Source: Allomuricauda sp. (lineage in GTDB: Bacteria; Bacteroidota; Bacteroidia; Flavobacteriales; Flavobacteriaceae). From it: a stretch of 64,000 nt of DNA. Shown in pieces: positions 8,430 through 41,693 of this stretch; the stretch's first letter is position 1, and every line of letters begins with the position of its first letter. The notes under the pieces are model-generated. The model was not told the DNA's origin and ran no database searches. It was given only the letters and a program-made list of their open reading frames with translations. Both the position numbers and the translations under genes were made by a program. The stretch lies in NCBI GenBank assembly GCA_030148335.1, contig JASBTQ010000036.1, positions 1 through 64,000 on the forward strand, written 5' to 3'.

Positions 8430-9263
8430 ATGGCATTGATCTATATTGAATACGATTTTAAGGTAAACCCAACTCAACCGGCAACCGATATCCTGATTGC
8501 CGAGTTGGGTGAAGTGGGTTTTGAAAGTTTTGTGGAAAATGAGACTGGATTGTTGGCCTATATCCTCAAATCGGAATGGAAAGAAGGTCTTTTGGACGAT
8601 TTTTTCATATTGCAGCACCCCGATTTCGAAATTTCATGGACCAGCACGGAAATTGAACAGAAAAACTGGAACGCCGAATGGGAAAAGAATTTCCACCCCA
8701 TCAAAGTGGGGGAGAGGTGTATGGTCCGGGCCCCTTTCCATGAGCCCGAGGCAGTGGAGTACGATATTGTCATCGAACCCAAAATGAGCTTTGGCACTGG
8801 GCACCATCAGACCACCTACATGATGTTGCAGCATATTCTGGATGTCGATTTTGAAGGAAAATCCGTTCTGGACATGGGCTGTGGCACCGGGGTGTTGGCC
8901 ATTCTTGCCAAGAAACGCGGCGCAGGTCCCGTAGAGGCCATCGATATTGATGAATGGTGTTTTTTGAACAGCAAGGAGAACGTGGAAAGGAACGATTGTG
9001 CCGATATTGCCGTTTTTCAAGGCGATAGTGCCCTACTTGCCGGAAGAAAATACGATATTATCCTGGCCAACATCAACAGGAACATTCTGCTGGAAGACAT
9101 CCCGATTTATGCACAATGTCTCCGAAAAGGAGGCAATCTTTTTCTGAGTGGCTTCTATTTGGACGATTTGGATGCCATTTCTTCAAAATGTAAGGCGCAT
9201 GGTTTGGAATTTGAAAAAAAACTGGAGAAGGACAACTGGATTTCAGCAAAATATGTAAATTAG
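8430..9263 (+). CDS. prmA: Ribosomal protein L11 methyltransferase
   Basis: A 277-residue SAM-dependent methyltransferase. The motif I glycine loop DMGCGTGVLAI is near residue 148, preceded by MSFGTGHHQTT, and ANINRNIL is the catalytic-site stretch typical of PrmA. The N-terminal about 100 residues match the L11-recognition domain. It sits between tpiA and clpS with short gaps, so all three are probably one transcript. Confidence 0.93.
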   Translation: MALIYIEYDFKVNPTQPATDILIAELGEVGFESFVENETGLLAYILKSEWKEGLLDDFFILQHPDFEISWTSTEIEQKNWNAEWEKNFHPIKVGERCMVRAPFHEPEAVEYDIVIEPKMSFGTGHHQTTYMMLQHILDVDFEGKSVLDMGCGTGVLAILAKKRGAGPVEAIDIDEWCFLNSKENVERNDCADIAVFQGDSALLAGRKYDIILANINRNILLEDIPIYAQCLRKGGNLFLSGFYLDDLDAISSKCKAHGLEFEKKLEKDNWISAKYVN

Positions 9264-9285
9264 AAAGGCATAAACTCCACAGAAC

Positions 9286-9561
9286 ATGGGCACAAGGGAA
9301 AGATTGCTTGAGGATGTCCTTCTAGAGGAAGAGACGGTGAACCAGAACGAGATTGTACTTTTCAATGACAATGTCAATACGTTTGACCATGTCATAGAGA
9401 CCTTGATCAACGTGTGTGAACACACGCCCGAACAAGCCGAGCAGTGTTCCCTGATCGTGCATTACAATGGAAAATGTACGGTAAAGACCGGGGAATATTC
9501 CTATCTGAAGCCCAAGTGTACCCAACTTCTGGAGGCGGGGCTGAGTGCAGAGATCGTATAG
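9286..9561 (+). CDS. clpS: ClpS adaptor for ClpAP/ClpCP protease
   Basis: A 91-residue N-recognin adaptor. The core VLFNDNVNTFDHVIETL with the Asn-Asp pair that binds N-terminal residues is followed by CEHTPEQAEQC and a closing segment with ECS-like spacing, as in ClpS. The acidic N-terminal arm (residues 6-17) is typical. It lies 22 bp after prmA. Confidence 0.93.
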   Translation: MGTRERLLEDVLLEEETVNQNEIVLFNDNVNTFDHVIETLINVCEHTPEQAEQCSLIVHYNGKCTVKTGEYSYLKPKCTQLLEAGLSAEIV

Positions 9562-9763
9562 CCCATCTTACCCCCTAAATCCTTTTTTGAACTTACCTTT
9601 TTTACATCATGTGATGGTTGCGAGCAATCCTTCTGATGATTGGAGATGAAATGCCTAAAAAATCATGGATTCTTCACAAAAAAGAAAGAGGGAGATTGCT
9701 TGTATATTGTACATTTACCAACAACCAAGAAAAACAAAAACCACTAACCTCCCTTCCTGAGAA

Positions 9764-16299: not shown

Positions 16300-17901
16300 A
16301 TGCAAAGAACAATAAAACGCTTTGGTATCATGGTATCGGCCTCCCTGCTTTTTTTGGGCTGTGAAATTTCAAACTTTGACCTGCAGGAGAACCCCAATTT
16401 CCTTACCCCGGAAAGTGCCGATCCGGAATACCTGTTGAATGAGATCCAGTACCAGTTCCAGTATTTTATGGGTTTGATGATCCTGAACACGGACGATGTG
16501 ATGCGCTATGAGGCCATGACCGACAACTATAGGGATGTGGTCTCCGTGGATGTTCTTGATGCGGAATGGGAAAGCTATTATGAGGCCCTCAATAATTCCA
16601 GGACCATTGAGGCATTGGCCGCGGAAAATGAAAGTTTGCTGTTTCACAACGCAATAAACAAATTGCTCATGGGCTATCTCACCATTACAATGGTGGACTT
16701 CGCGGGCAAGATACCCTACACGGAAGCCGTCAACCCCTCCGAATATCCCAACCCAAGGTTGGATGATGGGGATGATATCTATAGGAGTGTATTGGCGGAC
16801 ATTGATCAGGCCCTGTTGGACATTGAAGCTTCCAATTTCAATTTCTCAACAGATCTTTTTTACAACAGCGACAAAGAGAAATGGAAAGCGTTTGCCAACA
16901 CCCTTAAGTTGCGAATATTGGTGCAAACGAGATTGTCCAGCTCCCAATTGGGAATTGCCAATGTGGCAACAGAGATCAACAAGCTCTTGGAGGGTGATTT
17001 AATAGATACCGCTGCGGAGGACTTCCAGTACACCTATTCCACTGTGGTCGAACCGGAAAGCCGACATCGCTATTTTCAGAGAGCTTATGTGAGTGATTTT
17101 GGCCAATACATGGGGAATTACTTTATGTATATGCTCAAGGATTCCAAAAGCATGACAGACCCCCGACTCCGCTACTACCTCTACCGTCAGGCCGATGAAG
17201 ATCCGTTTAGCATCCCGCCCTATTCCACTTGCCAAAATGAATCGAATGTGGATTATTGTTATGTGGGGGAATACTACAGAGGGTTGGACCATGGAGAGAG
17301 CCGAACAGGTTACGGTGATAACGCCAAAAGAGCAGTTTATGGTATTTATCCAGGTGGTGGAACGTTTGATGAGGACCAGTTTCTTAGGGCATCCACTACC
17401 TCTACCCATTTGGAGGGAGCGGGTATACTTCCCTTACTCACATCATCCTACGTGAAATTTCTGATGGCCGAGGCAGCCCTTACCCTTGGAACCAATGGGG
17501 ACCCGGCACTTCTGTTGGAAGAAGCCATTAGGGATTCCATGGAAAAGGTGTTTGGGTTTGGCAATGTCAGTTCCGATTTTGAGGCCACGGACAACGATGT
17601 GGATGACTATGTGACTGAGGTCATGACCAATTATGGCAATGCCACCACAGATGAAGAAAGATTGGATATCATCATCACCGAATACTATTTGGCGGCTTAT
17701 GGCAATTCCGTGGAAGCTTACAATGCCTACCGAAGAACTGGGCTCCCATCCAATATCCAGGAGCCCATCAATGGGGACACCAGCTTTCCCAGAAGTTTTC
17801 CATATTCTTCCAATGCTGTGGAAATCAACCGATTCATCAAGCAGAAACAGAATTCTGAACGGGTATTCTGGGACACCAATCCCGAGGGATTCATCAAATA
17901 A
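16300..17901 (+). CDS. SusD/RagB-family substrate-binding lipoprotein (SusD-like_2)
   Basis: A 533-residue lipoprotein with lipobox LLFLGC (Cys near 25), followed by helical TPR-like SusD architecture, including NALLMGYLTITMVDFAGKIPY-type helices and a C-terminal AAYGNSVEAYNAYRRTG segment typical of the SusD-like_2 group. It caps the SusC barrel at the surface. It starts 19 bp after SusC and ends 15 bp before the next lipoprotein gene. Confidence 0.92.
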   Translation: MQRTIKRFGIMVSASLLFLGCEISNFDLQENPNFLTPESADPEYLLNEIQYQFQYFMGLMILNTDDVMRYEAMTDNYRDVVSVDVLDAEWESYYEALNNSRTIEALAAENESLLFHNAINKLLMGYLTITMVDFAGKIPYTEAVNPSEYPNPRLDDGDDIYRSVLADIDQALLDIEASNFNFSTDLFYNSDKEKWKAFANTLKLRILVQTRLSSSQLGIANVATEINKLLEGDLIDTAAEDFQYTYSTVVEPESRHRYFQRAYVSDFGQYMGNYFMYMLKDSKSMTDPRLRYYLYRQADEDPFSIPPYSTCQNESNVDYCYVGEYYRGLDHGESRTGYGDNAKRAVYGIYPGGGTFDEDQFLRASTTSTHLEGAGILPLLTSSYVKFLMAEAALTLGTNGDPALLLEEAIRDSMEKVFGFGNVSSDFEATDNDVDDYVTEVMTNYGNATTDEERLDIIITEYYLAAYGNSVEAYNAYRRTGLPSNIQEPINGDTSFPRSFPYSSNAVEINRFIKQKQNSERVFWDTNPEGFIK

Positions 17902-33722: not shown

Positions 33723-34868
33723 TCAGTTGATTGTTATTTCTTTGGTGTGGACAGTACTTTTATCTTTGATTTCATATCCAAAAGGAGCAATGATCTTTAG
33801 TGCTTCCAATACGTCTTCGATGCTTTCGACCTTTATATTGTACCTGGCATTGAAGGCCTTTTCCTCCAACCCAATGTTTTTGTTCACGATACGTACATTA
33901 TAGGCCCTTTCCAGTTTTGTCAGAAGTTCTGAAAAGGGAGTGTCCCTAAACACGATCTCGCCATTGAGCCAGCTGGTGTAGAGCAGGGTGTCCACTTTTT
34001 CCACACTCATGGTTTCTTGGGTCTTGTCCCACGAACCCTTATTGCCGGGCTCCAACAATGTTTTGCTTTCAGGATCCGATTCATGCGAAAGGCTAACGGA
34101 ACCTTCCACCAATACTGTATTGATGGTACTTTGCTCTTTATAGGATGTAACATTGAACTCGGTTCCCAATACTTGCACGGCCACTTGCTCGGAGTTGACA
34201 ATAAAGGGATGTTCCTTGTTCTTGGACACTTTGAAATAAGCCTCGCCCGTCATGGTCACTTCCCTGTTGCCCTTCGTTGGGAACTTTACGGGATATTTGA
34301 TGTGTGTGCCGGAATTCAATTGTATTTCCGTACCATCGGACAGTACAAGGGTGAACACTTTTCCATAAGGAACATGGAGTTCATTGAACACTGGATGGTC
34401 CACATTTCCAGGGTCATACCTGAGGGTATTGCCTTCCTGTACGGCAACTACTTCCCCTGAGGCCAGTACAATGGATTGTTTCTCGCCCTCCTGTATCGTT
34501 TTTACGGCATCTCCGGTATGGAGTGTGATGGTGTTTTCGGGAAGAGGTTGTTCCTTGTGTTGCAGGGTCAACTTAAGGGCGATCCCCAACGAAACCACAC
34601 CTATAAATATAGCAGCGTATTTAAGGATGGTGGGCATGTGCAGTTTTCTTACTTTTTTGCCCGATAGACGTTTCTGTACATCGGCCCAATCTTGTTCCTC
34701 ATCCAATGATTGCATGAACCCTATGGCTTCATCGACCAGTCCTTCCTCCAAAATTTTATCCAATAGCTCTTTATCGGCTTTCGAAAGTCCAATATCGGGA
34801 ACATTGCCCGTATTTTCTGACGTTTTCAGCTTTTGTAGGTACTTTAGCAATTGTTCCTTCTTGGACAT
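33723..34868 (-). CDS. FecR-type anti-sigma factor
   Basis: A 381-residue single-pass protein. The cytoplasmic N-terminal part (residues 1-83) would bind sigma, one transmembrane helix (about 84-101, ILKYAAIFIGVVSLGIAL) follows, then the periplasmic FecR domain (SDGTEIQLNSGTHIKYPVKF, TMTGEAYFKVSKNKEHPF) and a C-terminal STN-like DUF4974 domain (about 290-375). It senses the STN domain of the adjacent SusC and controls the divergent ECF sigma factor. Confidence 0.92.
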   Translation of the reverse strand: MSKKEQLLKYLQKLKTSENTGNVPDIGLSKADKELLDKILEEGLVDEAIGFMQSLDEEQDWADVQKRLSGKKVRKLHMPTILKYAAIFIGVVSLGIALKLTLQHKEQPLPENTITLHTGDAVKTIQEGEKQSIVLASGEVVAVQEGNTLRYDPGNVDHPVFNELHVPYGKVFTLVLSDGTEIQLNSGTHIKYPVKFPTKGNREVTMTGEAYFKVSKNKEHPFIVNSEQVAVQVLGTEFNVTSYKEQSTINTVLVEGSVSLSHESDPESKTLLEPGNKGSWDKTQETMSVEKVDTLLYTSWLNGEIVFRDTPFSELLTKLERAYNVRIVNKNIGLEEKAFNARYNIKVESIEDVLEALKIIAPFGYEIKDKSTVHTKEITIN

Positions 34869-35037
34869 GAAAATGGTTTTCTTTATATATGAGTTGTCTT
34901 TTTTGTTGAACAGGGTGACAAAGGAAACTTTTTTTTTAAAAACGTTAATTTTTGATACTCAAGCCACTATTTGTTAAACATTAAATTTATATTTCCTTAA
35001 CTTTAAGTCACCTAATAACCCCCAAACCCAAAAGCAT

Positions 35038-35559
35038 ATGACCAATAAGGTAGAGGAGTTATTTAAAGATAACTACGCTTTATTATGTCTGGTCTCGTTT
35101 TCCTTCGTGAAGGATAGGGATGTTGCAAAGGATATTGTGCAGGATTTTTTTGTTTCCTTCTGGAACAAAAGGGACACGATAACCATTACGACTTCCTTTG
35201 AGGCCTATGCCAGGAAATCGGTAAAAAACCTCAGCCTCCAGTATCTTGAAAAAGAGAAAAAAACACGAAGGTTGGGACATGACCTTGATGTGGGCAAGGA
35301 AGAGATCCAACCCCTATTGGACAAGCCCAAAAAAAACCACAAGCTTTATGACCTGTTGGACCAAATGCCCGACAAAAGACGGGAGATTTTCATATCCTTT
35401 GTGGTCCAGGGAAAAAGCTACTCGGAAATTGCCGAATCAAACGGGGTGTCCATCAATACCGTGAAGACCCAGATGAAAAGGGCATATGCTTTCCTACGGT
35501 CCCACAAGAAGCAGGATTTCATCTCTTTTTATGTATTGCTCTTTTCGTTTTTTTACTAG
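35038..35559 (+). CDS. ECF sigma factor (Bacteroidota FecR-partner class)
   Basis: A 173-residue sigma-70 family protein with region 2 (DIVQDFFVSFWNKRD near 36-50) and region 4 (DKRREIFISFVVQGKSYSEIAESNGVS in part, near 110-136). The length and motifs are those of sigma factors paired with FecR in Bacteroidota. It is divergent from fecR across a 169-bp gap instead of preceding it in one operon, so a shared control region may drive both. A hairpin terminator follows. Confidence 0.92.
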   Translation: MTNKVEELFKDNYALLCLVSFSFVKDRDVAKDIVQDFFVSFWNKRDTITITTSFEAYARKSVKNLSLQYLEKEKKTRRLGHDLDVGKEEIQPLLDKPKKNHKLYDLLDQMPDKRREIFISFVVQGKSYSEIAESNGVSINTVKTQMKRAYAFLRSHKKQDFISFYVLLFSFFY

Positions 35560-37289: not shown

Positions 37290-37607
37290 TTGGAAATTCA
37301 CTGGAAATCTTTTGGCAATAACCCGCTACAGCGGATACATCTGGAATACGCCGTCCAATTGCAGGTAAGGATGGCCCTTATCAAAGAAGCAGAGCATTTG
37401 ATGGATTATCTTTCCTTGGTCATTGTTGAGGTATGTGCGGATAAAGGGACCGTTTCCATTGGCAAGGAAACCCCAGAGCCTCTGTACTCCATCCTCTCCA
37501 GGAATTTTGACCCATCTGGTTCTTTTGCAACAGACCAGAATCAAGAAGAAAACAACGCTCTTGTGGCCTACTTCCAAGCTTCGACCCCGGTTCCGGCATC
37601 ATTTTAA
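37290..37607 (+). CDS. Small unknown protein, TTG or internal ATG start
   Basis: The frame of 105 codons opens with TTG at 37290; ATG at 37371 would give 79 residues. Codon choice resembles neighbouring genes more than the antisense frame does. A TATTTTTG box near 37268 could be its -7 promoter element. The product looks soluble, with a helical centre (VRMALIKEAEHLMDYLSLVIVEV) and a Ser/Pro-rich end. I know no family, and a non-coding reading is possible. Confidence 0.4.
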   Translation: MEIHWKSFGNNPLQRIHLEYAVQLQVRMALIKEAEHLMDYLSLVIVEVCADKGTVSIGKETPEPLYSILSRNFDPSGSFATDQNQEENNALVAYFQASTPVPASF

Positions 37608-37655
37608 ACTTTTTTTAGGTTTCCAGGGAACCACGGTTACACTTAAAAATGCTTT

Positions 37656-37690
37656 TTTTGTAACCTTTTGAATGGATGCGGTTGTCCTAT
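37656..37690 (+). promoter_or_regulatory. Candidate ECF-sigma promoter, copy 1
   Basis: TTTTGTAACCTTTTG at 37656-37670, then 13 bp, then GTCCTAT at 37684-37690, 36 bp before the ATG of the amidohydrolase lipoprotein. The same two blocks at the same spacing precede the serine hydrolase gene (39226-39260). A GTAAC -35 and GTC -10 is the usual ECF layout. The ECF sigma encoded at 40777 is the natural candidate reader. Confidence 0.55.
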
Positions 37691-37726
37691 CTTTTTGAGG
37701 AATCCTTCATCCAAACCTAAAAAGCA

Positions 37727-39178
37727 ATGTCCAAAAGCATATCAATTGGGAAGGTTCTTGCGCTCGCTATACTTTTCATAGGCTGCAAAACTTCCAACAA
37801 AAAGGAGTTGGCCGTTTCCGATCTAGAAATGAACACATTGCCCAAGAATGAGGTTCCGGACCAAATCCAACGCTATATCAAGTATCAGGACAGCAGTATG
37901 GTTCTGATCAATGCCACGATTGTGGATGGTACGGGCAATCCCATCAAAAGAAACCAAACCATCATTGTTGAAAACGGATGGTTCAAGGCAATTGGCAAAG
38001 CTTCAGAAATTGAGATTCCCCAAAAAAACACTTTGATCGATCTAAAGGGCAAAACTGTAGTTCCCGGTTTTGTGGGAATGCACAACCATTTGCACATCCC
38101 AAGGTTCCCTTTTGTGGGCGACATAGCTTCAAAATTGTACCTGGCTTCGGGTGTTACCACCATACAGACCTGTGGGGCGGCATCTCCGATAGAGGAGCTA
38201 AACCTCGCCAACCAAATAGCCGAAGGGAGCAAGATAGGTCCTGATATAGTTCCCAGTGCTCCATTTATCACTGGCGAAGGCGGGAACCCCAATATGATCA
38301 TTCCCAGAAATGAGAAGCATTTGAGGGATACCATGCAATATTGGATGAAAAAAGGGATCAAGTGGTTCAAAGTTTATCGCAACACTAGCCCCGAGGATTT
38401 AAAAATCATCATCGACGAAGCCCATAGGAACAATGCTAAGGTGAGGGGCCATTTGTGTTCCGTTACCTTCGAGGAGGCCACAAAAATGGGAATTGATGGT
38501 ATTGAACATGGGTTGAACAGTGCAAGCGATTTTAGGACCCATAAGGAAACTGGTATCTGCAATGGTGGAAGGGAATACATGGACGAGCTCCTTATCGCTG
38601 GGCCAGAGGTGAGAAAGTTACAGCAATTGATGATCGACAACGAGGTAGTGTTGACCTCGACACTTTCCATTTATGAGGCCAGTGTGCCGAATAGGGCTTA
38701 TGCCGATGATAGGACATTGGAAACAATGTCACCTTATTTGCTTCAAACGTACCAGGAGCGGAGAAAGCAGTTTGATGAAGAGGTCAGGGACCTCACCCGA
38801 GAAGGGCGCCTCAAAAGAATCATGCAATTCGAATACCAGTTCCATAAAATGGGTGGGCTTTTGTGCAGTGGTGTGGATGCGGGCAGACACGTGCTTCCCG
38901 GATTTGGGGACCAAAGGAACTACGAACTGCTCCGAGAAGCCGGTTTCACTACCGAAGAAGCGGTACAGATCATGACCGGAAACGGGGCAAAGGCACTGGA
39001 AAGATCCGATATCGGCACTGTTCAGCAAGGCAAAAGGGCCGATTTTGTGGTTCTGGATGGAAATCTGGAAGAGGACCCCACCATCATCAAGAAAGTGGAA
39101 ACGGTCTTTAAAAAAGGAGTGGGGTACACCCCTGAACAATTATTGAAAGATACAAAGGGGAAATTCGGGCTGGAATGA
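37727..39178 (+). CDS. Amidohydrolase lipoprotein (imidazolonepropionase-like superfamily)
   Basis: A 483-residue lipoprotein (lipobox LFIGC, Cys near 20). Metal site landmarks are VPGFVGMHNHLHIPR (HxH near residue 125), Lys in IKWFKVYRN, VRGHLCSVTFEEA, GIDGIEHGLNSA and the catalytic Asp in LLCSGVDAGRH. The end has DIGTVQQGKRADFVVLDG. It is one of four amidohydrolases of this broad type in the window and closest in layout to the one at 23614. It shares a promoter-like motif with the serine hydrolase downstream. Confidence 0.85.
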   Translation: MSKSISIGKVLALAILFIGCKTSNKKELAVSDLEMNTLPKNEVPDQIQRYIKYQDSSMVLINATIVDGTGNPIKRNQTIIVENGWFKAIGKASEIEIPQKNTLIDLKGKTVVPGFVGMHNHLHIPRFPFVGDIASKLYLASGVTTIQTCGAASPIEELNLANQIAEGSKIGPDIVPSAPFITGEGGNPNMIIPRNEKHLRDTMQYWMKKGIKWFKVYRNTSPEDLKIIIDEAHRNNAKVRGHLCSVTFEEATKMGIDGIEHGLNSASDFRTHKETGICNGGREYMDELLIAGPEVRKLQQLMIDNEVVLTSTLSIYEASVPNRAYADDRTLETMSPYLLQTYQERRKQFDEEVRDLTREGRLKRIMQFEYQFHKMGGLLCSGVDAGRHVLPGFGDQRNYELLREAGFTTEEAVQIMTGNGAKALERSDIGTVQQGKRADFVVLDGNLEEDPTIIKKVETVFKKGVGYTPEQLLKDTKGKFGLE

Positions 39179-39225
39179 AAACCCTATAAAAGCTATTTTG
39201 GGGAACAAAGCATATTTCCAAACGA

Positions 39226-39260
39226 TTTTGTAACCTTTTGCCCGTCTCGGTTTGTCCAAT
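39226..39260 (+). promoter_or_regulatory. Candidate ECF-sigma promoter, copy 2
   Basis: TTTTGTAACCTTTTG at 39226-39240 and GTCCAAT at 39254-39260, with the same 13-bp spacing as at 37656. Between the blocks only a GTT before GTCC is shared, which argues for selection on the blocks rather than a recent duplication. It lies 46 bp before the serine hydrolase start. Confidence 0.55.
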
Positions 39261-39306
39261 GGATGTGAATTCACCAAAACACATTCAATAAGATAAACTT
39301 TTACAC

Positions 39307-40419
39307 ATGAGACATATAAAAAACTTTTTTGGAATCCCTTTACTATTTTTTTTCTCCCTTATGCCGATAGGGGCCCTTTCCCAAGACAAGACTGTGGAAA
39401 TCCCTGAGGGAAAAACCATCACCCATACAGCGTTGGATCGCGGGATAGAAAACATCATAAAGGAAAAGGACATCCCGGGAATCTCAATCGCCATCATCAA
39501 CAAGAACGAATTGGCATACCATAATGTTTTTGGAGTGGCAAATTCCGAAACAAAGGAATCGGTCACCAAACAGAGCATTTTTGAAGGGGCCTCCCTTTCC
39601 AAGCCCATTTTCGCCTATTTTGTAATGAAAATGGTGGATAGCGGGGTGTTGGATTTGGACAGACCGCTCCACGAATACCTCCCGCATCCGGGAATCGCAC
39701 CCGAAAGCCAAGAAGATTACAAGTTGATCACCGCGCGCATGGTATTGGCACACCAAACAGGGTTTCCCAACCATGCCAATGGCAAGCCGATACAATTGGC
39801 CTTTACCCCAGGAACTGATTTTATGTATTCTGGGGAAGCCTACCAATATTTGGCCGCTGTTATCGGAATGTTGAAAGGTGTGGGTATGGGAAAAGACATG
39901 AACGATCTGTTTCAAAAAGAAGTGACCGAACCCCTTCAAATGGAGCACACTTCCTTTGTTTGGGACGATTATCTCCACAACCATAAGGTGTATGGGCATG
40001 ACAAGGGACTGAACCCCACGGCCAACAAACCGGTTGCGGGCCGTTGGAGTGGAAAAACGTTCAATGCGTTTTCCAGCGTCCACAGTGAAGCTTCGGAATA
40101 CGCAAAATTCATCATCGCTATGCTCAAACGGGAAGGGCTCTCATCAGCCTCTTTTGATGCCATGCTGAAGGAAGAGACCCATTTTTCGGAAGACAACCCA
40201 CTCAAAAAAGAGATTGGCCAGACCGGATGGGGCCTTGGTTTTGCCCAAAAAATAAGACCCAACGGCACGATGCACATGCACACGGGGAACAACCACGATT
40301 TTCAGGCCTACACCATGTTCATCCCAGAAAAGGAATATGGGTTGGTGGTTTTTACCAATTGCGGCAAAATGCCCATTTTTTTGGAGGAAATCTCGAACAT
40401 ATTGGGGGAACAATTTTAA
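39307..40419 (+). CDS. Serine hydrolase of the beta-lactamase (class C / S12) family
   Basis: A 370-residue exported protein (signal peptide ending ALSQ). The catalytic Ser-x-x-Lys is in GASLSKPIFAY near residue 98, the Tyr motif is YSGE rather than the usual YxN near 178, and the third motif is HTGNN near 319. It is more likely an esterase or D-aminopeptidase/peptidase than a true beta-lactamase; the altered Tyr motif supports this. It lies 128 bp after the amidohydrolase gene behind its own ECF-like promoter. Confidence 0.85.
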   Translation: MRHIKNFFGIPLLFFFSLMPIGALSQDKTVEIPEGKTITHTALDRGIENIIKEKDIPGISIAIINKNELAYHNVFGVANSETKESVTKQSIFEGASLSKPIFAYFVMKMVDSGVLDLDRPLHEYLPHPGIAPESQEDYKLITARMVLAHQTGFPNHANGKPIQLAFTPGTDFMYSGEAYQYLAAVIGMLKGVGMGKDMNDLFQKEVTEPLQMEHTSFVWDDYLHNHKVYGHDKGLNPTANKPVAGRWSGKTFNAFSSVHSEASEYAKFIIAMLKREGLSSASFDAMLKEETHFSEDNPLKKEIGQTGWGLGFAQKIRPNGTMHMHTGNNHDFQAYTMFIPEKEYGLVVFTNCGKMPIFLEEISNILGEQF

Positions 40420-40454: not shown

Positions 40455-40787
40455 ATGGAAAACGTACAAGAGGCCCTTGGGGCACTGTTTCTGGTACTCG
40501 GATTGGTGGCCGTGATCTTCATCATAGCCCGTTATACTTACCTTTTGAAAAAGGCCATGATCGAAAAAGGGCTGCAGCCTTCCCCTTCAAACAAGAGGAT
40601 GCAATATGTGGATATCGGGTGCATTGTGCTCGGATTGGGGATAGGACTGATGGTATCGTCCGTTTTCACTATCATGGACCTTGCCGAAGATACTGCGGAC
40701 CTGATCATTTGGGGAACCATACTGATTTTTGGTGCACTGGGGTTGCTCACGGCACATTGGTTGAGAAAAAAAGAAGGTGGGCGATAG
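40455..40787 (+). CDS. Small three-helix membrane protein (DUF6249-like)
   Basis: The 110-residue protein has three hydrophobic segments (about 8-27, 53-70, 82-101) with a short positively charged loop and a Lys/Arg-rich end. Similar small proteins accompany ECF sigma genes in Bacteroidota (DUF6249 type, from memory). The end overlaps the GTG start of the sigma gene by 11 bp, which makes cotranslation very likely. Confidence 0.75.
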   Translation: MENVQEALGALFLVLGLVAVIFIIARYTYLLKKAMIEKGLQPSPSNKRMQYVDIGCIVLGLGIGLMVSSVFTIMDLAEDTADLIIWGTILIFGALGLLTAHWLRKKEGGR

Positions 40788-41346
40788 AAATTCCAAGGAT
40801 ATTTCGCTGGTAAACAGGAGCTTGAAAGGGGATATGCAGGCCTTTCGGGAGTTGGTGGACGCCCATAAGGATGCCTCACTCACCCTTGCCTGTTCCATTT
40901 TGAAGGACCCCATGATCGCAGAGGATGCCGTGCAGGCCACTTTCATCAAAGTTTATCAAAAACTGCACACCTTTGGGCAAAAATCCAAGTTTTCAACATG
41001 GTTGTACCGTATTGTGGTCAATACTTCATACAACGTGCTGAAACAACAAAAAAAGTTTGTGGACCTTGATGCCGTGGGGAATGTGCAAGAAATCACAGAT
41101 CTTGGGAACGGCAATTCCAAGGAACAGGATCAAAAAAAATACATTCACCAGGCCTTGGATGCCCTAAAGCCGGATGAAGCCTTGGTGCTGAGACTGTTTT
41201 ATCTGTATGAGCACAAGATCACGGAAATCCAGGAAATCACGGGATTTGGCAAGTCCAAGGTAAAGGTGGACCTGCACCGCGGCCGCAACAATATGGAACA
41301 GGAATTGAAAAAATTATTGGGTAACGAAATACACGAACTGCTATGA
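40777..41346 (+). CDS. ECF RNA polymerase sigma factor
   Basis: A 189-residue sigma-70 protein starting with GTG. Region 2 includes FRELVDAHKDASLTLACSIL and AEDAVQATFIKVYQKL (near 49-64), with FSTWLYRIVVNTSYN as region 2.4. Region 4 has LKPDEALVLRLFYLYEHK and ITGFGKSKVKVDLHRGR (near 155-171). It overlaps the upstream membrane gene and the downstream putative anti-sigma gene (4 bp ATGA). It is a different class from the FecR-linked sigma at 35038. Confidence 0.92.
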   Translation: MGDRNSKDISLVNRSLKGDMQAFRELVDAHKDASLTLACSILKDPMIAEDAVQATFIKVYQKLHTFGQKSKFSTWLYRIVVNTSYNVLKQQKKFVDLDAVGNVQEITDLGNGNSKEQDQKKYIHQALDALKPDEALVLRLFYLYEHKITEIQEITGFGKSKVKVDLHRGRNNMEQELKKLLGNEIHELL

Positions 41347-41693
41347 ACGAAGAGGAAATCAAAAAAATCATTCAAAAAAGTGGCCTGAAGACCAAGGATG
41401 ATTTCACGGACAGGCTTATGCTGGAGTTGCAAAGGGAAGCTGTGGAAATGCCTAAAAGTGTACATTCTGTCCGACCGAAATTTTATTTTTCGGTTTCATT
41501 TGCCCTATTGCTCGGTATCGGGGCTGTATTGTTTTTTGTGGGTGTGCCTTCATTTGCAGTGGTAGACCTTAAGATCAACCTGCCGAAGACCCCAGTGTTT
41601 GTGGGAGTGCTGTTTCTGATCTTATATGGAGCGAACAGAGTTTTGACCCTTAGCTCTACCCAAGGGGACTATGAAGAAAAGTGGGGCACTTAA
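41343..41693 (+). CDS. Putative membrane anti-sigma factor
   Basis: A 116-residue protein with a charged N-terminal part (residues 1-42, helical) and two membrane helices (about 48-65 and 81-96). No family is recognised, but a short cytoplasmic helix bundle plus membrane anchor translated by a 4-bp overlap right after an ECF sigma gene is the classic anti-sigma position. It converges on the SRPBCC gene. Confidence 0.65.
   Translation: MNEEEIKKIIQKSGLKTKDDFTDRLMLELQREAVEMPKSVHSVRPKFYFSVSFALLLGIGAVLFFVGVPSFAVVDLKINLPKTPVFVGVLFLILYGANRVLTLSSTQGDYEEKWGT

Follow-up and report, generated by a model that had tools for sequence, protein, structure and literature searches.

A probable ECF-type promoter motif, conserved before a sigma factor operon and also present before a neighbouring amidohydrolase gene in Allomuricauda

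Two genes in the window, the 64-kb stretch of DNA from a marine Allomuricauda analysed here, are preceded by the same two-block promoter-like element, TTTTGTAACCTTTTG-N13-GTCC(T/A)AT, which is found before an amidohydrolase gene (37656-37690) and before a serine hydrolase gene (39226-39260) with a distance of 24 bp from G to G in both copies (Table 1). Both sites are very probably used as promoters by the stress-type ECF sigma factor whose gene lies at 40777, with the sigma operon being self-activating and the amidohydrolase gene co-controlled. In silico, an ECF-type promoter that would be used by the adjacent sigma factor is the best-supported reading: at 19 of 19 loci the orthologous sigma operon is preceded by the motif, whose conservation footprint falls off upstream. 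An earlier note on this DNA had claimed a two-block motif with equal spacing before both hydrolase genes, which is present exactly as described, and had connected it with the neighbouring sigma factor, a proposal that gains support here. The circuit is of a standard bacterial kind and is newly located; no description of the operon or of its promoter was recognised in the open-access journal literature searched. The operon combines a clean promoter with few targets and two candidate regulators, and is easily testable.

Table 1. Features of the two promoter-like sites and of the adjoining genes (window coordinates).
Feature	Position	Strand	Evidence and remarks
-35-like block TTTTGTAACCTTTTG, amidohydrolase gene	37656..37670	+	Sequence; TTTTTTTGTAACCTATTG in A. 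taeanensis; matrix rank 2 in 64 kb
-10-like block TTGTCCTAT, amidohydrolase gene	37682..37690	+	GTC from 37684; GTCCTAT 37684-37690; TTGTCCCAT in A. taeanensis
Amidohydrolase-family gene, 483 aa, prolidase / Xaa-Pro dipeptidase-like by sequence	37727..39178	+	PF01979 1.6e-16
-35-like block TTTTGTAACCTTTTG, serine hydrolase gene (sigma operon)	39226..39240	+	GTRAC in 19/19 orthologous operons; matrix rank 1
-10-like block TTGTCCAAT, sigma operon	39252..39260	+	GTC from 39254; GTCCAAT 39254-39260; TTGTC in all aligned operon promoters
Perfect 10-bp palindrome GTGAATTCAC	39265..39274	+	11 bp past G of GTCC, sigma operon promoter
Serine hydrolase, beta-lactamase/DD-peptidase family, 370 aa, operon gene 1	39307..40419	+	PF00144 2.2e-48
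Small membrane protein, DUF6249-like, 110 aa	40455..40787	+	PF19762 32.4 bits, cutoff 33; 11-bp overlap with sigma gene
ECF sigma factor, 189 aa, GTG start, sigma2 + sigma4 only	40777..41346	+	PF04542 1.9e-15 and PF08281 1.6e-8, both above cutoff
Small membrane protein, 116 aa, candidate anti-sigma factor	41343..41693	+	4-bp overlap with sigma gene; no family match

Gene content of the locus

The 39226 site is followed by four genes on the same strand, encoding the serine hydrolase, the DUF6249-like membrane protein, the ECF sigma factor and a small membrane protein, the junctions being a 35-bp gap and then overlaps of 11 and 4 bp. Because the serine hydrolase gene is the first gene of this four-gene unit, the 39226 site is most simply taken as the putative promoter of the sigma operon itself. 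The earlier note had the sigma gene, together with its membrane partners, following directly; more than that, the sigma gene comes third in an operon whose first gene encodes the serine hydrolase.

The 40777 protein contains sigma2 and sigma4 and no other domain, which is the composition of ECF (group IV) sigma factors. With FecI/FecR-type systems it shares the pairing of an ECF sigma factor with a membrane partner, whereas its TIGR02985 score is below the cutoff of that type (66.0 versus 126.4 bits) and no FecR is found among the operon genes. The two small membrane proteins adjoining the sigma factor gave no match to an anti-sigma family. All nine aligned orthologues of the DUF6249-like protein match PF19762 at E<=0.01, and an ORF resembling the 116-aa protein follows the sigma gene in the 8 loci examined; its structural model is of low confidence (pLDDT 59) and has two N-terminal helices and two longer ones. 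In the serine hydrolase the residues S96xxK99, Y174SG and H325TG, which we take to be the SxxK, YSG and HTG motifs, are kept in a three-row alignment. This protein is a remote PF00144 member and reaches the cutoff of none of the 25 NCBIfam models listed, among them that for class C beta-lactamases (bla_class_C, 76.4 bits against a cutoff of 415), so that its assignment goes no further than the superfamily. The amidohydrolase, whose ATG lies 43 bp after the G of GTC, likewise scores below the NCBIfam Xaa-Pro dipeptidase cutoff (109 bits, cutoff 500), and its nearest PDB sequences are 2p9b and 3mtw. PADLOC matched none of the five locus proteins, and predicted terminators and sigma-70 promoters between 37150 and 41800 were at shuffle level (6 versus 6.6 and 7 versus 6.5, respectively). 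A TTG-start ORF of 105 aa at 37290-37607, possibly an overlooked gene, has no Pfam match; A. taeanensis has its equivalent in the corresponding position (L066 2198-2512).

Occurrence of the motif in the window and in the genome

The 13-bp spacers of the two window copies are equal at 5 of 13 positions, with TT ahead of GTCC in both. The remark in the earlier note that the bases between the blocks differ is thus correct for the window pair, but it does not extend to the family, where most species beyond the lineage of the window share a conserved spacer. The note had also called GTAAC plus GTC typical of ECF promoters. The bare core GTAAC-N17..20-GTC was found four times in the window against 3.0 expected, which is not unusual; GTAAC plus GTC alone therefore carries little weight, and it is the full motif that counts. 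GTAACCN{17,19}GTCC was found three times in the window against 0.21 expected, the third match being located at 17286 on the minus strand, antisense inside a 533-aa ORF.

The genome-wide motif search that had been proposed was carried out on the own genome (3.44 Mb in 47 contigs, 83.6% complete), and its outcome depended on the form of the motif. The short form GTAACCN{17,19}GTCC was not enriched (15 matches versus 57 for the reversed control), and TGTAACNNTTTN{9,14}NGTC gave four matches, two of them the window sites, with seven for the reversed control. The extended motif TTTGTAACCTTTTGN{10,14}GTCC, by contrast with the short form, matched at two places only, both of them the window sites, and gave no match in 248 other genomes of the family. 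The note had found no third intergenic copy by eye; the genome search with the full motif gave none, and the third short-form match of the window lies inside an ORF.

Conservation of the operon promoter in orthologous loci

Sigma orthologues were collected from several genome sets. In a set of 60 genus genomes, a clear sigma orthologue was identified in two apart from that of the window, and 11 further genus genomes added four. The A. abyssi copy is split by an apparent frameshift: in strain W52 (L077 5986-6560; L067 ~9107-9681) the promoter and the neighbouring genes are intact, and the split sigma gene is either a pseudogene or an assembly error. A scan of a named genome collection, which finds only loci that match two short peptide patterns, gave 29 loci, of which eight were clear; these belong to five Allomuricauda (A. 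taeanensis (87%), A. aurea, A. chongwuensis, A. abyssi and Allomuricauda sp. NAT111), to Sinomicrobium pectinilyticum, to one Dokdonia and to Leptobacterium flavescens, and the remaining 21 loci (<=44% match) were left out. Finally, a profile search of 397 family genomes with a cutoff of 1e-45 found 19 genomes, 12 at <=4e-71 (the window's included) and seven at 1e-50 to 1e-45. All 11 non-window genomes of the stronger class, which are all outside the genus and two of which are identical in sequence at this locus, have the gene order serine hydrolase, DUF6249-like protein, sigma factor, with the motif before the serine hydrolase gene; the fourth operon gene gave a tblastn match in 6 of these 11 family loci. 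In the seven genomes of the weaker class the serine hydrolase matches are distant or absent, and four of the seven have a different motif, GTAACC..GTCT with spacing 23, just before their own sigma gene, the other three having none.

The resulting set of 19 operons consists of seven from the genus, ten from the family sample (including Leptobacterium), S. pectinilyticum and Dokdonia, after one duplicate had been dropped (L123, equal to L122 in 2500 of 2500 bases); several Allomuricauda promoters are nearly identical, and the 19 are therefore not 19 independent observations. By genome labels, the operon was found in 11 genera. Searching for GT[AG]AC and TTGTC at 22-24 bp from each other identified exactly one GTRAC-N18..19-TTGTC site before the serine hydrolase gene in each of the 19 operons. 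An AAC-bearing -35 before the own operon, as in autoregulated ECF systems, is thus kept in the orthologues (GTAAC in 18 of 19, GTGAC in Dokdonia), while the CGT of such systems is not found in the -10, which reads TTGTC in 19 of 19. The G-to-G spacing is 23 in 17 of the 19 promoters and 24 in those of the window and A. taeanensis; the common spacing is therefore 23, and 24 is a lineage variant.

The conservation footprint was determined from 16 operon promoters, three near-identical Allomuricauda rows having been left out. Their consensus is TTGTAACCTTTT..AAAAGTCATCTTGTCCAAT..ATGTGAATTCACA. Per-column conservation was 0.81-1.00 for TTGTAAC and TCTTGTCCAAT, dropped to 0.31-0.62 in the upstream flank from -55 to -27, and was 0.38-0.81 from +30 onward; in this GTC-anchored alignment the -35 is blurred for the two rows with a spacing of 24 bp.

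A palindrome downstream of the operon -10

The palindrome GTGAATTCAC follows the -10-like block of the operon promoter at a constant position and, by ECF promoter geometry, presumably covers the transcript start. Its left half, ATGTGA, is strongly conserved among the operon promoters (0.81-1.00 per column). Twelve of the 16 operon promoters contain a palindrome of at least 8 bp (at least 4 pairs), its centre being either AATT or GCGC, and some relatives have a TGAGCGCTCA-type palindrome in place of GTGAATTCAC. It is missing in the operon promoters of Sinomicrobium, Dokdonia and two further loci (L120 and L125), and neither of the two amidohydrolase promoters has it. In the window GTGAATTCAC is not enriched, with one exact match and three with at most one mismatch against 3.0 expected. 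The palindrome could act as an operator or else as an initially transcribed element. Its absence from 4 of 16 operon promoters leaves the case for a fixed operator unproven, and a leader peptide starting at the ATG of the palindrome was rejected by eye because the frame is not kept.

The amidohydrolase gene as a probable second target

To score the window independently of its own sites, a two-block matrix was derived from 13 distinct sites, all of them in species other than that of the window and A. taeanensis, with an author-set penalty of 1.5 bits for spacings 22 and 24. On both strands of the 64 kb this matrix ranked the operon site first (32.0 bits) and the amidohydrolase site second (23.4 bits), the next score being 16.3. 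None of 400 simulated first-order windows reached 23.4 bits (maximum 22.4), and an earlier run of 100 simulations had a maximum of 27.3, above the score of the amidohydrolase site. From the scores and both runs it follows that the operon site is secure, and that the amidohydrolase site is strong but by score alone not beyond chance.

The A. taeanensis orthologue of the amidohydrolase (75% protein identity) has its own motif with spacing 22, its GTC being located 43 bp before the ATG as in the window. The amidohydrolase was searched for in 17 of 18 sigma-positive genomes, G160 being omitted as it is the same as G354 at this locus. It was found at ~62% identity or more in 10 of the 17 and at 38% in one (G136); six had none at E<=1e-40. 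Nine of the 10 genes share the strand of the sigma operon and lie no more than ~6 kb away from it, and the copy of G398 lies elsewhere. The gene is upstream of the operon in the window and in A. taeanensis and downstream of it in seven genomes; in A. aurea and A. chongwuensis it adjoins the last operon gene. A motif of its own was seen in the window species and A. taeanensis only: the nine other copies (>=61% identity) and the 38%-identity gene all lack GTRAC..GTC with spacing 22-25 in the 1.5 kb upstream. Among 70 genus genomes, counted as such irrespective of kinship, the amidohydrolase (E<=1e-100) is present in 7 of 7 sigma-positive and 2 of 63 sigma-negative ones. Its location and its co-occurrence with the sigma factor suggest that the amidohydrolase is part of the same response, reached by two routes, namely neighbourhood to the operon or an own copy of the promoter. 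A G005 gene that precedes the operon (L045 1971-3434) was rejected as an amidohydrolase, being absent from the amidohydrolase matches; the orthologues in that genome lie downstream and elsewhere.

Extent of the regulon

The strict pattern TGTAACCNTTTN{12,15}TGTCCNAT, drawn up after three of the 71 genus genomes had been seen, matched in 7 of 7 sigma-positive and 1 of 64 sigma-negative genomes, where the match is antisense in an ORF, and its reversed control gave two. This link of motif and sigma factor is partly trivial because one copy precedes the sigma operon itself. The loose pattern TTGTAACN{15,17}TTGTCC matched in 30 of 70 genus genomes, 23 of the 63 sigma-negative ones among them. In the 18 sigma-positive genomes, which include G160 and G354 with identical sigma loci, it gave 30 matches: 17 operon promoters, two amidohydrolase promoters and 11 elsewhere. 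As these 11 do not exceed the 16 of the reversed control, the regulon looks local, and no wider one was seen in the 18 genomes. Nine of the ten off-target matches examined are inside ORFs of at least 80 aa; the eleventh (G309) has the same letters as that of G308. A narrower pattern, with the CATTT and CAAA variants excluded, had 14 matches in 10 of the 18 genomes, four of them off-target against three for its control, and was kept out of the counts. One off-target match in G132, ~30 bp before a small gene, marks a candidate target.

Alternative readings of the two sites

The sites could be ECF promoters used entirely or for the most part by a different ECF sigma factor, the 40777 sigma being a mere passenger of the operon. 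There are 21 sigma-like matches at E<=0.001 in the own genome, that is 20 besides the 40777 sigma, and any of them could read such a site. Moreover, another ECF gene (G000:C23:12038) has GTAACC-N17-GTCC directly upstream, so that core letters are shared between ECF sigma factors, and the available text of PMC9723704 discusses an overlap of ECF regulons in F. psychrophilum. We nonetheless consider this reading improbable, as the extended motif follows the 40777 sigma across genera and is absent from 63 of 64 sigma-negative genus genomes despite at least 11 sigma-like matches in each of 60 genus genomes. Similarly improbable is a reading in which only the operon promoter is real and the amidohydrolase site has arisen by chance or is a relic. 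The restriction of this copy to two species, with spacings of 24 and 22, its lack of the palindrome and a simulated score above its own in at least one of the 100 simulations of one run (0/400 in the other) would fit a chance match, but the same blocks at the same distance from the ATG before the 75%-identical orthologue of the second species, a score that is second in the window behind that of the operon promoter alone, and a gene that itself travels with the sigma factor all argue for a real site.

That the two blocks form a transcription-factor site or parts of a housekeeping promoter is very unlikely. The spacer AAAGTC(A/G)TCTT and the palindrome are conserved at most operon promoters, which is more than should be needed for a sigma factor alone and would suit a factor site. 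An ECF promoter nevertheless agrees with the AAC and GTC cores, with the distance between them and with their place before the sigma factor's own operon. As to a housekeeping promoter, no exact TTTG-N17..22-TAnnTTTG pair is present in 37500-37730 or 39150-39310, where isolated -7-like strings only were found.

A proposed model of the circuit and its relation to known systems

Under the preferred reading, promoters for the 40777 sigma, the 39226 site would drive the serine hydrolase, DUF6249-like, sigma and small membrane protein genes as one transcript, and because the sigma gene lies inside this operon the sigma factor would activate its own operon. The 37656 site would place the amidohydrolase under the same sigma factor, and its transcript may run on into the sigma operon. 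It is assumed that the unstimulated sigma factor is kept at the membrane by one or both of the small membrane proteins and that a putative envelope signal would free it; both hydrolases would then be made together with more sigma factor and its restrainer. Judged by eye from their N-termini, the two hydrolases are probably exported; their place of action would be the envelope. It is conceivable, if rather doubtful, that the DUF6249-like and 116-aa proteins represent an undescribed kind of membrane restraint for Bacteroidota ECF sigma factors, with the hydrolases taking part in signal processing and the start-site palindrome serving as an operator for a second layer of control.

According to the available part of PMC8103513, most ECF operons are positively autoregulated and AAC/CGT-type promoters were an early hallmark, CGT in the -10 being no longer defining. 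The present operon resembles these autoregulated operons in its AAC-bearing -35 and GT-bearing -10 at the usual distance before the own operon and in its co-encoded membrane proteins; it differs from them in the -10 TTGTCC instead of CGT, in the serine hydrolase as first gene and in having no recognised anti-sigma domain. In Bacteroidetes, as far as the accessible text of PMC7406223 goes, only ~6% of ECF sigma factors have a class I anti-sigma domain protein nearby. For F. psychrophilum, the excerpted PMC9723704 describes a mapped CGT-box class of ECF promoters and the housekeeping box TAnnTTTG. Its SM6 promoters are likewise ECF-type promoters of Flavobacteriaceae, one of them preceding an ECF/anti-sigma pair, but they have the CGT box and type IX secretion genes among their targets. 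The sigmaP/PbpP system for beta-lactam sensing of Bacillus thuringiensis (PMC8092216, available in part) also links a penicillin-binding-type protein to an ECF sigma factor, whereas the window hydrolase is remote within PF00144 and below the NCBIfam cutoffs. The motif of P. gingivalis SigP, as given in the portion of PMC4800418 at hand, differs from the window motif, and in the corresponding portion of PMC12596196 no comparable motif letters were found.

Other sigma systems and ECF-like sites

Further ECF-like sites were noticed. In the own genome, GTAACC-N16-CGTCC (L004 1501-1527, G000:C23:11985) lies directly before another ECF sigma gene and is likely to mark a second autoregulated ECF operon. 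The site TGTAACATTTTAACA..GTCT, with spacing 22, is found before an ABC-transporter-like ATPase gene (by eye) in the own genome (L012 1501-1526, G000:C40:159831) and in G446 and G448 (L142, L146), and probably belongs to a different ECF regulon. At 33723-35559 of the window, a gene judged FecR-like by eye and a sigma gene of TIGR02985 type (35038, 129.8 bits) point away from each other; the pair seems to be of the FecI/FecR type and is a second sigma system ~5 kb from the 40777 sigma.
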